Assembly: GCF_015244745.1 (NCBI RefSeq)
Contig: NZ_JABCQI010000008.1
Location: forward strand, 62,001-126,000
Length of the DNA: 64,000 nt
DNA from: Gluconobacter cadivus
GTDB taxonomy: Bacteria > Pseudomonadota > Alphaproteobacteria > Acetobacterales > Acetobacteraceae
Direction: 5' to 3'
The position numbers and the translations under genes were made by a program. Below are positions 36,176 to 38,810 of the stretch, piece after piece. Each line of letters opens with the position of its first letter. The first letter of the stretch is position 1. The notes beneath the pieces were generated by a model, which saw only the letters and a list, made by a program, of their open reading frames with translations, did no database searches and had not been told where the DNA came from.

Positions 36176-36250
36176 GGGCGCGTAGCTCAGCGGTAGAGCA
36201 CTGCCTTCACACGGCAGGGGTCACAGGTTCAATCCCTGTCGCGCCCACCA
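36176..36250 (+). tRNA. tRNA-Val (anticodon CAC)
   Basis: Cloverleaf is readable: acceptor GGGCGCG pairs with CGCGCCC, D-arm AGCTCAGCGGTAGAGC, anticodon stem CTGCC/GGCAG around TTCACAC (anticodon CAC), T-arm CAGGTTCAATCCCTG, then discriminator A and encoded CCA. It is intact and marks the left edge of the prophage. Confidence 0.95.
36214..36250 (+). other. Probable attL core within the 3' half of tRNA-Val
   Basis: Tyrosine integrases of temperate phages commonly use tRNA 3' halves and restore them on integration. The intact tRNA directly beside phage cargo and integrase fits this. The exact core cannot be defined without attR, which should repeat part of this stretch beyond the window. Confidence 0.5.
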
Positions 36251-36394
36251 TCCTAAATCCCTGAAAATTAAAAATATTTTCTCTGTTTTCTTGTCCCTCT
36301 CGGGAATGGCATATGCGGCACGATGCAAGTCTAACCCTTTGCGAATCGGTTTGAGTTTGCAAGAACTGCAACAGATTTTTTACGGCCCGTGGGT

Positions 36395-37186
36395 TCAAAA
36401 TAGCGAATCCTGCTCTGTTTCATTGAGCCTAATTATCCCAATCAATAACCACGTATCAGACCAACGGCTGTGCGTACCCATCGCAAACACCACCCCTCTT
36501 TTAGGGTATTCCTCTTCAAATCTCAGACGAATGGTTTTCAATACCTCTTTTTCTCCATACTTTGGACATAAGTTATGGAACATTGCAGGGATTTCCCAAT
36601 CCTCGGAAATGTTCTGATGCGATTTTCCTTCTGCATCCGTCCAAGAAAATATGAATTTATATGGGCATGGCGTAATTGATTTCAGCTCTTGCCCATCTCT
36701 ACTATCAAATAATCCTCTCTGCCTTCCAACCTCTTTATAATGATCCGATTCTTCTTTTAATTCTTCGGGTTTTTTCTTTATTATTTTAAGCTTGATATTA
36801 CGCGGCCGGACCAACGCCAGACTCATTCCAAGTTCGGATGCGTGTCGTGTAGAAGGAACAATCACCTTCTCCAGAAAGCGAGACTTTTCGCTTTCTTTAA
36901 TTTTTCCTTTTGGAAAAATCGTGTTTTCCTGAACTCGTCTACTTTCTGTTCTCTTGTCTTGGCTGGGGTCTGGAAGTTTGTACTTATATTCAATCCATTC
37001 CCATCGATCGAATTTTTCTTTTAAGCGCCGGAAGGGAATTGGATATTGCCTTCTCCATTGCCCCTCTCTAGTCACTCCGGCACAACAAACAGTCTCTCCA
37101 TGTTTTGCGCCAGGCAACGGATAAGCCTTTGCGAGTATCAAAACTTCTTCAGAGAAAATTTCCGTCAGACTTAATTTTTTGTCCAA
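36395..37186 (-). CDS. AT-rich prophage cargo protein, partner of the DUF488 gene
   Basis: 263 residues, family not named with certainty. The N-terminal part reads VLILAKAYPLPGAKHGETVCCAGVTREG followed by WRRQYPIPFRRLK, RWEWIEYKYKLP and DKRTESRRV, a pattern I associate with genes paired to DUF488, but this is from memory. The C-terminal half (FIFSWTDAEGKSHQN, MGTHSRWSDTWLLIGIIRL) is also well structured. Markedly more AT-rich than both the chromosome and the phage genes. Start overlaps the DUF488 stop by 38 bases, so the two are one operon. Not a phage structural or replication gene; likely cargo. Confidence 0.7.
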   Translation of the reverse strand: MDKKLSLTEIFSEEVLILAKAYPLPGAKHGETVCCAGVTREGQWRRQYPIPFRRLKEKFDRWEWIEYKYKLPDPSQDKRTESRRVQENTIFPKGKIKESEKSRFLEKVIVPSTRHASELGMSLALVRPRNIKLKIIKKKPEELKEESDHYKEVGRQRGLFDSRDGQELKSITPCPYKFIFSWTDAEGKSHQNISEDWEIPAMFHNLCPKYGEKEVLKTIRLRFEEEYPKRGVVFAMGTHSRWSDTWLLIGIIRLNETEQDSLF

Positions 37187-37676
37187 TTCCCGATCTCACG
37201 CTTACATGCCTCAGATGTATTGAAACACTATCAGAGATCATTCTTGCCACAATGCTTCTATGACAGGACTTGTGATCATACTCGTAACACATCAGGCACA
37301 CTACCTCTTGCCCGACGATAGCCTCTAATTGCCGAAGACCGTCTTGAGCAATTTCCGTTTGCATGTGGCTGGTAAAGATGTTCACAAATAAGCGGTAATT
37401 TCCCGCCTTTGCAGCATCTCTTCCTTCTTTTGGATCACCTAAAGACCGAAAATGTGCATAACGAATCCCTTCGCTCTCTAGGGCTTGAGAAAGTGCGGTC
37501 TTTGCAAAACCTTTTCGCCTTGAAATAGGCAACTGGCGAATATCAGCCAAGCACGTAACACCTAGATTCTTCAAGGTAAGCACAAAGTCCTTTAGATCGG
37601 CTCCTTCATAGCCTATCGTAAATAAATTCTGCTTTTTGTTTTCTACTGTTTCTTTCAATGCGCTATGGCCTATCAT
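37149..37676 (-). CDS. DUF488 family protein (prophage cargo)
   Basis: 175 residues. N-terminal FTIGYEGADLKDFVLTLKNLGVTCLADIRQLPISRRKGF and the C-terminal motif VCLMCYEYDHKSCHRSIVARMI match DUF488, with the family's CxE...CHR signature. Biochemical role of the family is unsettled; members often sit in mobile or defence-type islands. AT-rich. Lies three bases after the integrase end on the same strand and upstream of its partner gene. Confidence 0.8.
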   Translation of the reverse strand: MIGHSALKETVENKKQNLFTIGYEGADLKDFVLTLKNLGVTCLADIRQLPISRRKGFAKTALSQALESEGIRYAHFRSLGDPKEGRDAAKAGNYRLFVNIFTSHMQTEIAQDGLRQLEAIVGQEVVCLMCYEYDHKSCHRSIVARMISDSVSIHLRHVSVRSGIGQKIKSDGNFL

Positions 37677-37679
37677 CGC

Positions 37680-38810
37680 TCAACTATTTAGATTCTCAAT
37701 CAGATTTTGATCAGACGACCAATCTTCGATTTCTTTCCGGTAAGACGCCGGCATCTGCTTTGCATACCGTGTCACCATGCCAATTGTCTCCCATCCCCCT
37801 TCATCTTTCAGCCGAAGAATGTCGTGATGAAGGCAGTAGTGCCAAGTGGCCCATGTATGTCTGAGATCGTGGGGGGTAAAATCAGGAACGAATGTCCGGC
37901 GCTCTGACAAGTGCCCTTTAGGTACCCACACTCGGTAGTGTCCTGGTAACCCCGCCTTTCTGCATGCTGCAGCCCAGCCAGATTTAATCTGCCCACCACT
38001 GGTCCGACCATTGTTATGATATCGCTCTCCAATCATTCGCTGGGGATCGGCGCCGAGGGTAGGGCGACGAATCTGAACCGGCCGGAACACATGACCAAGT
38101 CGGTGAGGTAGCGCGGACAGCGCTTTGATGACAATTGGCGGCAGATCAAGGCGGCGTTCAGTACCCTGCTTTTGCCAAACCACGGCCTGCATATGAGGCA
38201 GATCAACATCCTTCCATTCCAGATCCAAAGCTTCGGACATCCGAACCCCTGTTCCCACAAGAAAAGTCAGCAATGGCTTCAGGTGAGGGGCTGCGCACTC
38301 GATTAAGCGCTTAACCTGAGCAGGCTTGAGATAAGTAGTCCTCGCCCTCGGAATGCGCGGCGTGTCAAAAGCCGGTCGATCACACCAGCGCCGAATCGCG
38401 GCAAATTCCAAAATAGCTCTCAGCGGCGTTAGGACGCCTCGCATCTTCGTGGCCGGACTTGCATCCATGCCTTCCCTCAAGATTTTCCGATACGCCTCAT
38501 CGAGCTCGTTTTGCGCGATGTCGATAAGTCTCCTGGTCCCAAAATGATTCAGTAGCCGGCGGAGATGAAATTTCGTGGTCTCTGATCGCTCTTCCGCCTC
38601 AAGGTAGGCCGCTACGGCATGAGCGAATGTGACGACTGCTTTTTTGCCGTAGACGCTCTCCTGCCAGAGCTCTGCTTCGCGTTTCGCCCGGATCTCTTCT
38701 GCCCGTTGGGGGTCAGCAGTGCCTGTGCTTTCGCTAACGCGTTGTCCGCCGACGGTGCCGCTGAGGTAGAGGCGTTTCGTACCGTGACGTTTGACGATTT
38801 TAAGGGACAT
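37680..38810 (-). CDS. int: Phage tyrosine integrase
   Basis: 376 residues. N-terminal arm-binding part (MSLKIVKRHGTKRLYLSG), core-binding SAM-like domain (about 60-150), then the catalytic domain with the first Arg in VGTGVRMSEALDLEW, HxxR in HDLRHTWATW and the nucleophile Tyr in GMVTRYAKQMP. Integrates the phage at tRNA-Val. It is the last gene of the leftward operon and starts 199 bases inside the preceding ORF, with only a weak ribosome binding site, so its translation is probably coupled. Confidence 0.92.
   Translation of the reverse strand: MSLKIVKRHGTKRLYLSGTVGGQRVSESTGTADPQRAEEIRAKREAELWQESVYGKKAVVTFAHAVAAYLEAEERSETTKFHLRRLLNHFGTRRLIDIAQNELDEAYRKILREGMDASPATKMRGVLTPLRAILEFAAIRRWCDRPAFDTPRIPRARTTYLKPAQVKRLIECAAPHLKPLLTFLVGTGVRMSEALDLEWKDVDLPHMQAVVWQKQGTERRLDLPPIVIKALSALPHRLGHVFRPVQIRRPTLGADPQRMIGERYHNNGRTSGGQIKSGWAAACRKAGLPGHYRVWVPKGHLSERRTFVPDFTPHDLRHTWATWHYCLHHDILRLKDEGGWETIGMVTRYAKQMPASYRKEIEDWSSDQNLIENLNS

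Follow-up and report, generated by a model that had tools for sequence, protein, structure and literature searches.

The two overlapping genes that lie between tRNA-Val and the integrase in the window, by which we mean the whole 64,000-nucleotide stretch of Gluconobacter cadivus DNA analysed here, belong, as judged from profile E-values and adjacency, to the candidate defence system PDC-M19, which is already in PADLOC. They form a two-gene, AT-rich module that moves as a unit on mobile elements. New here are the predicted OB folds of one of the two proteins, called B, and two conserved motifs in the B family that resemble those bound by the bacterial sliding clamp, DnaN; the first-pass annotation of this DNA had neither these features nor the PDC-M19 match. 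As a tentative proposal that falls somewhat short of being probable, we read PDC-M19 as lysogeny cargo in which a clamp-docked, OB-fold B would bring a DUF488 enzyme to new DNA and block the replication of rivals.

The locus and its mobile element

The features on which the analysis draws are the following.

36176 to 36250, forward strand: tRNA-Val (CAC), the integration target (ARAGORN)
36201 to 36253, forward strand: attL, a 53-bp direct repeat (own-genome pattern search and base-by-base comparison)
36395 to 37186, reverse strand: protein B, 263 aa, TTG start; PDC-M19B/phrog_25907 family, with predicted OB folds (probably two)
36398 to 36412, reverse strand: C-terminal clamp-type motif QDSLF, residues 259-263 (the last five) of B (alignment; AlphaFold2 pLDDT)
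36707 to 36721, reverse strand: internal clamp-type motif QRGLF, residues 156-160 of B (alignment; AlphaFold2 pLDDT)
37149 to 37676, reverse strand: DUF488 protein (PDC-M19A), 175 aa, ATG start (Pfam PF04343, E 2.7e-29; PADLOC, E 1.9e-31)
37257 to 37289, reverse strand: motif C130-x-E132-x5-C138-H139-R140 (CYEYDHKSCHR), the putative active site (invariant in 96 aligned sequences)
37680 to 38810, reverse strand: tyrosine integrase, int (Pfam Phage_integrase, E 1.4e-16; phrog_1)

The genes for int, the DUF488 protein and B lie on one strand, with 3 nt between the end of int and the start codon of DUF488 and an overlap of 38 nt between DUF488 and B, provided that the TTG start of B is correct. 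The attL repeat is the 3' part of tRNA-Val, and a second identical copy of the 53 bp was found beyond the window, 45.7 kb away on the same contig (C8:143944-143996). Since the two repeats bound an element of about 45.7 kb, the pair is cargo of that element, placed between attL and int. The first-pass annotation had described two ORFs overlapping by 38 nt between tRNA-Val and int, and its coordinates hold, inside an att-bounded element. Its remark that the pair is more AT-rich than phage and host was borne out as well: the GC content is 42.3% in the pair against 54.5% in int, 57.7% in the prophage within the window and 60.0% on the host side. The pair nearly coincides with the GC-poorest 1282-nt segment of the stretch (42.2%; lowest elsewhere 51.4%; mean 59.0, sd 3.0). 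Promoter and terminator searches gave 2 and 5 sites, respectively, against 3.2 and 3.7 expected, and none stands out. In a plasmid DNA search with the locus only the tRNA part matched.

Outside the window, near attR, the element carries a second AT-rich cargo (about 37% GC over a 1.3-kb stretch) with a 295-aa ORF (L165:15063-15950) that appears by eye to be a trypsin-like protease. Just inside attR of the same element there is also a UmuC-like polymerase (IMS_C match; L165:16087-17741, at about 142.1-143.7 kb of C8), accompanied by a UmuD-like gene that was recognized by eye.

Assignment to PDC-M19, pairing and distribution

The window pair matched PDC-M19A (E 1.9e-31) and PDC-M19B (E 6.8e-43) with adjacent, overlapping genes, and membership was judged from these profile E-values together with the adjacency. 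The pair thus resembles PDC-M19 in that both protein models are matched in the same adjacency; it differs in length, as the PDC-M19A models have 234 and 294 positions and the shorter window DUF488 matches only their C-terminal part. B, which the first-pass annotation had called unrecognised, also matched phrog_25907 (E 2.2e-28) and had no match in Pfam, and all 22 of a set of diverse aligned B proteins matched the PDC-M19B model. The PADLOC entry for PDC-M19 gives no description, and the terms PDC-M19, PDC-M19A and PDC-M19B were absent from the open-licence literature searched. According to the excerpted text of PMC12988326, PDCs are candidates from a guilt-by-embedding preprint (Payne et al. 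2024) and are mostly unvalidated.

Relatives were grouped on the C-terminal 150 residues of B, keeping the longest stretch, into 137 distinct loci, which omit the window record itself and include its copy from the genome search. From the genome-contig search 80 of 142 relatives were taken in, mostly from Alphaproteobacteria to judge by their titles. DUF488 adjoins B in 132 of the 137 loci, with DUF488 followed by B on one strand in 125, the two genes convergent in 6 and B followed by DUF488 in 1. The remaining five loci, in which no DUF488 was found, comprise a broken one (L013), two with a truncated B (L018 and L029), one at a contig edge (L158) and one with a complete B (L051). The partners are hence not apart in most genomes, an outcome that the first-pass annotation had named as telling against a cargo pair. 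The distance matrices of B and DUF488 were correlated over 86 loci (Mantel r 0.61; best of 2000 permutations 0.08), with host kinship uncontrolled. Base composition was compared in 128 loci, after dropping those with no DUF488, with a flank of less than 2 kb or with genes more than 3 kb apart, and the pair was AT-richer than its flanks in 125 of them, by 7.5 points on average.

The distribution of B is sporadic: with the own genome counted each time, it was found in one genome among the 26 of the genus, and wider surveys gave 11 of 299 for the family and 10 of 398 for the phylum. A single DUF488 and a single B were found in the 32 contigs of the own genome. The other outcome that had been named against the cargo reading, that both are housekeeping chromosomal genes, is rejected, these being the sole DUF488 and the sole B found in those contigs and B occurring in one genome of the 26. 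On mobile DNA, B was found in 37 loci of viral contigs and in 25 of 72,556 plasmid records. The 25 records run from Rhizobium to Streptomyces and include cyanobacteria and Sulfolobus, and 12 of them are typed as conjugative. B was also found in 7 of 50,697 phage records, all of them Gordonia phages reached via distant queries; the window's own B found none. The viral contigs gave no relative when Sulfolobus, Calothrix or Pseudomonas B, or the Sulfolobus ParB-DUF488 protein, was used as the query.

The gene neighbourhoods are varied. Counts of neighbours are lower bounds, obtained with one seed per marker on short stretches: a terminase is nearby in at least 19 of the 137 loci and a serine recombinase in at least 21 (one of each was Pfam-checked), while RuvC-like resolvases (at least 11) and C5-methyltransferase-like proteins (at least 10) were labelled by eye. 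An integrase like that of the window was present in at least two loci, one being the window's own copy. The terminases near the pair in at least 19 loci, in place of a lysogeny module, count against our reading, as does the low count of integrases like that of the window.

Two further observations concern these neighbourhoods. On three plasmids (L022, L027 and L031) the neighbours of the pair include genes for copper, heavy-metal or cation transport, which may be chance. In two terminase-linked phage contexts the pair is closely preceded by a DNA methyltransferase gene (L143:3862-5169 and L141:3848-5257) whose product has, as judged by eye, a ParB-like N-terminus; the enzyme was assigned to N6_N4_Mtase by Pfam in the former and by eye in the latter, and its N-terminus recalls the ParB-DUF488 fusions of Sulfolobus.

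Predicted structures of the two proteins

The AlphaFold2 model of B has a mean pLDDT of 92.5. A Foldseek comparison with the PDB gave seven matches at E <= 0.001, namely CST, five telomere end-binding entries and one HIN-200 domain, with RPA, POT1 and SSB among the matches at higher E-values. Whole-length TM-scores were low, mostly 0.2-0.3; a single OB of B superposes on the Rim1 SSB with a TMt of 0.68 (E 0.011). Among viral structure models the best matches were to the ssDNA-binding protein LEF-3, likewise at low TM. One OB fold in B is well supported by the model and two are probable, and the resemblances make it reasonably probable that B handles single-stranded DNA. Searches of PDB sequences with B or DUF488, as single sequences or as profiles, gave no convincing match.

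The DUF488 protein scored 102.7 bits against Pfam PF04343 (gathering cut-off 22.2) and 35.6 bits against PF22751, DUF488-N3a, the "active subclade" (cut-off 27), the latter over positions 55-116 of 118 only; its weaker PADLOC matches were to PDC-M45B and PDC-M45C. The first-pass annotation had noted that it keeps a CYEYD...CHR motif, and C130, E132, C138, H139 and R140 are indeed invariant in the 96 aligned sequences, where the invariant residues also include T20, G22, Y23, D45, R47, S52 and R53. The model is an alpha/beta protein (AlphaFold2 mean pLDDT 91.5) in which C130, C138 and R140 belong to a strand-Cys loop-helix arrangement. Foldseek gave no PDB match to it at E <= 0.001, the weak ones including several tetrapyrrole-methylase-like proteins, and a comparison with DUF4326 was weak (7% probability). 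The alpha/beta model and the Cys loop are suggestive of a relation to the rhodanese-phosphatase superfamily, in which DUF488 has, we take it, already been placed in print. On balance we lean slightly towards DUF488 as the putative effector enzyme of the pair.

The DuOB family (PF22557) was considered for B and rejected, as the window B gave no match at E 0.1. The DuOB profile matched 3 of the 22 aligned B members weakly (best E 5.8e-4, short of the cut-off), and the B profile gave probabilities of only 2.3% and 0.8% against two DuOB proteins. These two came from a Pfam DuOB search of 120 genomes, which gave two matches, one of them above the cut-off. Both DuOB genes (L166 and L167) adjoin a DUF488 gene and an mSLOG-DUF4326 gene; for the DUF488 proteins of these operons the best match is PDC-M45C, and of the DuOB proteins one matches PDC-M45A and the other nothing. 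The PDC-M45-like operon is like the window pair in combining a dual-OB protein with DUF488, and the one DUF488 compared is homologous to that of the window type (hhalign probability 98%). It differs in its third gene, mSLOG-DUF4326, and in that inspection by eye revealed no clamp motif in either DuOB protein. The occurrence of dual-OB protein and DUF488 in this second form supports a working partnership between the two.

Clamp-type motifs in B

Two short motifs are conserved in the B family. At the internal site, with the consensus Q-x-[DS]-[LFM]-[FL], 86 of 88 aligned B proteins have Q and all 88 have F or L at position 160. At the C-terminal site, which reads Q-x-x-L-[FL] or a six-residue variant, Q is found in 83 of the 88 (it is absent from the column in the other 5) and L in 80. 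Regular expressions recovered both sites in 62 of the 88 proteins, the C-terminal site alone in 24, the internal site alone in 1 and neither in 1; the expression for the internal site failed in 25, many of which read QxSFF or QxSFL. The B proteins of Arthrobacter and of genome G040 have the internal motif and lack the C-terminal one.

Among 131 distinct B proteins, 82 have QxxL[FL] within their last 12 residues, against 1 of 130 DUF488 proteins and 7 of 2188 other ORFs, the last being stop-to-stop frames of which many are not genes; in 500 shuffles it was found in at most 13 of the 131. With the six-residue form included, the counts are 111 of 131, 1 of 130 and 15 of 2188, with at most 22 of 131 in the shuffles, and with a stricter published consensus they are 35 of 131, 0 of 130 and 5 of 2186. 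A few of the 131 proteins, among them L013, L121 and L073, are truncated or broken and were counted as motif-negative. The peptide patterns used to retrieve loci from the contig collections lay outside the two motifs.

The two sites fall within, or border on, less confident parts of the B model, where pLDDT is 80 for residues 151-160, 70 for residues 161-170, 82 for residues 251-260 and 54, the lowest of the model, for the last three. Other low values are 79 at the N-terminus and 83 for residues 51-60.

In the excerpted text of PMC13254535, bacterial clamp motifs read QL[SD]LF or Q-aliphatic-x-[LM]-[FL], the latter also in a six-residue form, and one internal and one C-terminal motif, QADMF and QVELEF, are described for Pol III alpha. 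B is like Pol III alpha in this internal plus C-terminal layout, and like Pol III alpha, translesion polymerases and RecB in having short motifs of the Qxx[LM][FL] type; no family relation to bacterial clamp binders was seen. Resemblance to the motif is not proof of binding: QALRF, a RecB peptide of similar sequence, failed to bind the clamp (PMC13254535).

The window B carries the relaxed DnaN-client motif Qxx[LM][FL] at the conserved sites, and QRGLF and QDSLF depart from the stricter consensus, having R and D at position 2 instead of an aliphatic residue. Two other motifs depart from it too, QTGLF, which lies 231 residues before the end of the host's Pol III alpha, and QGQMF in the UmuC-like protein of the prophage, so that the QRGLF of B fits local usage. 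The protein adjoining a second Pol III-like gene, probably ImuB, has QLDLL. We take the positions of these named motifs to be those of the known E. coli sites. The scan of host clamp partners covered seven loci, of which L172 and L174 were uninformative since the frame read was not that of the polymerase; it also picked up further sites, one of them in Pol III alpha, one in the UmuC-like protein and three in the second Pol III-like protein, and found none in MutS. Given the conservation, position and local form of the motifs, docking of B on DnaN is likely.

Relatives in archaea and in Gordonia phages

On Sulfolobus and Saccharolobus plasmids a relative of B follows a gene for a ParB-DUF488 fusion, unlike the window, where DUF488 has no ParB domain. 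A ParB-CTPase fold protein of archaea, fused to DUF488-HTH, is reported in the excerpted text of PMC12704722 to bind CTP. The bacterial form of the motifs is absent from the two distinct archaeal B proteins. At the corresponding places these have AQATLDQYI or AQATLEQYI internally and GIDKWL or GIDRWL at the end, sequences that we take to be PCNA-box-like (PIP-box consensus). On the sequences of two proteins, it appears that PCNA-type tags have taken over from the bacterial clamp tags at both places.

Nymphadora, a Gordonia phage with an integrase and an immunity repressor, encodes a PDC-M19B protein, gp43, with the motifs QEVLF and QISLF. Its gene lies directly behind that of the repressor, gp44, and near the integrase, and gp42 is a DUF488 protein; the HipA toxin label carried by gp42 (L159:9810-10262) was rejected on a DUF488 match of 103.9 bits in Pfam. 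In contrast to the window arrangement, the two genes converge and B has the repressor, not int, as its immediate neighbour. In the portion of Pope et al. (PMC5559632) that was available, the Gordonia pair is listed among candidate prophage-defence genes, as a candidate toxin-antitoxin system. Nymphadora was a target phage in the CarolAnn study (PMC6426606), the available part of which contains no test of Nymphadora's own pair. The anti-phage function that the first-pass annotation had offered as a guess agrees, by analogy, with the PADLOC candidate models for PDC-M19 and with this repressor-linked copy.

Alternative explanations

A clamp-docked pair could instead serve as a replication or repair accessory that protects, repairs or processes the element's own DNA rather than acting on that of rivals. 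Proteins of DNA repair and replication typically bind the clamp, according to the excerpted text of PMC13254535, and several of the contexts described above would suit such a role: the terminases (at least 19 of 137 loci), the RuvC-like resolvases seen by eye (at least 11 of 137), the 25 plasmid records with 12 typed as conjugative, and the ParB-DUF488 fusions on Sulfolobus and Saccharolobus plasmids. We consider this explanation rather unlikely, since B is sporadic at every rank surveyed (1 of 26, 11 of 299 and 10 of 398 genomes, own genome counted), the pair exceeds its flanks in AT content in 125 of 128 loci, and the contexts seem too varied for a single replication machinery.

A toxin-antitoxin module, in which one partner would poison replication via the clamp, the other would restrain it and the benefit would be maintenance of the element, is improbable. 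Typical antitoxins are smaller and less well conserved than either protein, the gene order is variable (convergent in 6 of 137 loci), and the Gordonia protein labelled as a HipA toxin is a DUF488 protein. What speaks for such a module is the make-up of the pair, two small AT-rich genes that often overlap and are carried by plasmids and prophages, the possibility that a binder with two clamp motifs could compete with the polymerase, and the listing of the Gordonia pair as a candidate toxin-antitoxin system by the authors of PMC5559632, in the part available. Conservation alone cannot name the partner of a motif, so the QxxLF motifs might instead be structural hydrophobic contacts within the family, for example for binding of B to DUF488, unrelated to the clamp; their absence in bacterial form from the two archaeal members would fit this. 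We give it little credence, given that both sites fall within or border on the parts of the model with the lowest pLDDT (80, 70 and 54, with 79 at the N-terminus and 83 at residues 51-60), that the C-terminal site consists of the last residues of B, and that two such sites per protein seem unlikely otherwise. Their sequences, moreover, resemble the Pol III clamp motifs both of this host and of PMC13254535, as excerpted there.

Proposed function and implications

In the mechanism that we propose for PDC-M19 as lysogeny cargo, B would be an OB-fold adaptor, resembling ssDNA-binding proteins, that handles single-stranded or junction DNA and docks on the host DnaN via its internal and C-terminal motifs. 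Through B, the DUF488 enzyme, with its invariant Cys, Glu and Cys-His-Arg, would reach newly replicated DNA. The pair would then block or damage the replication of superinfecting phages or other elements, either directly or by halting the cell. The near-constant pairing, the mobility, the conserved motifs and the predicted folds are what the data show, from which docking, DNA binding, catalysis and defence are inferred. Against this mechanism speak the low whole-length TM-scores of B, the weaker PDC-M45B/C matches of DUF488 and its lack of a PDB match at E <= 0.001, together with the position-2 residues of the window motifs, the B proteins that depart from the motif at either site and the further sites found in the scan of host clamp partners. 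Protection against other phages is the likeliest benefit of the pair, a candidate that we hold about evenly with its negation. A more specific version, in which PDC-M19 would be an immune module at the replication fork, a cysteine enzyme plugged into both pockets of the host clamp via B, is doubtful.

A statement that partners of DUF488 bind the clamp was not found in the open-licence literature searched, as far as its available text goes, and no defence system docking on the sliding clamp appeared among the titles and opening lines of abstracts of the matches listed. PDC-M19 has so far been only a name in a defence database, and the conserved motifs and predicted OB folds described here give it a sharp question, that of DnaN binding and of whether any phenotype depends on it. 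If our reading is true, an accessory system would use the replication clamp of the host to get at invading DNA, and the widespread DUF488 domain would gain a site of action. Were the version at the replication fork also true, any DNA copied with the host clamp, that of an invader included, could be inspected or attacked.
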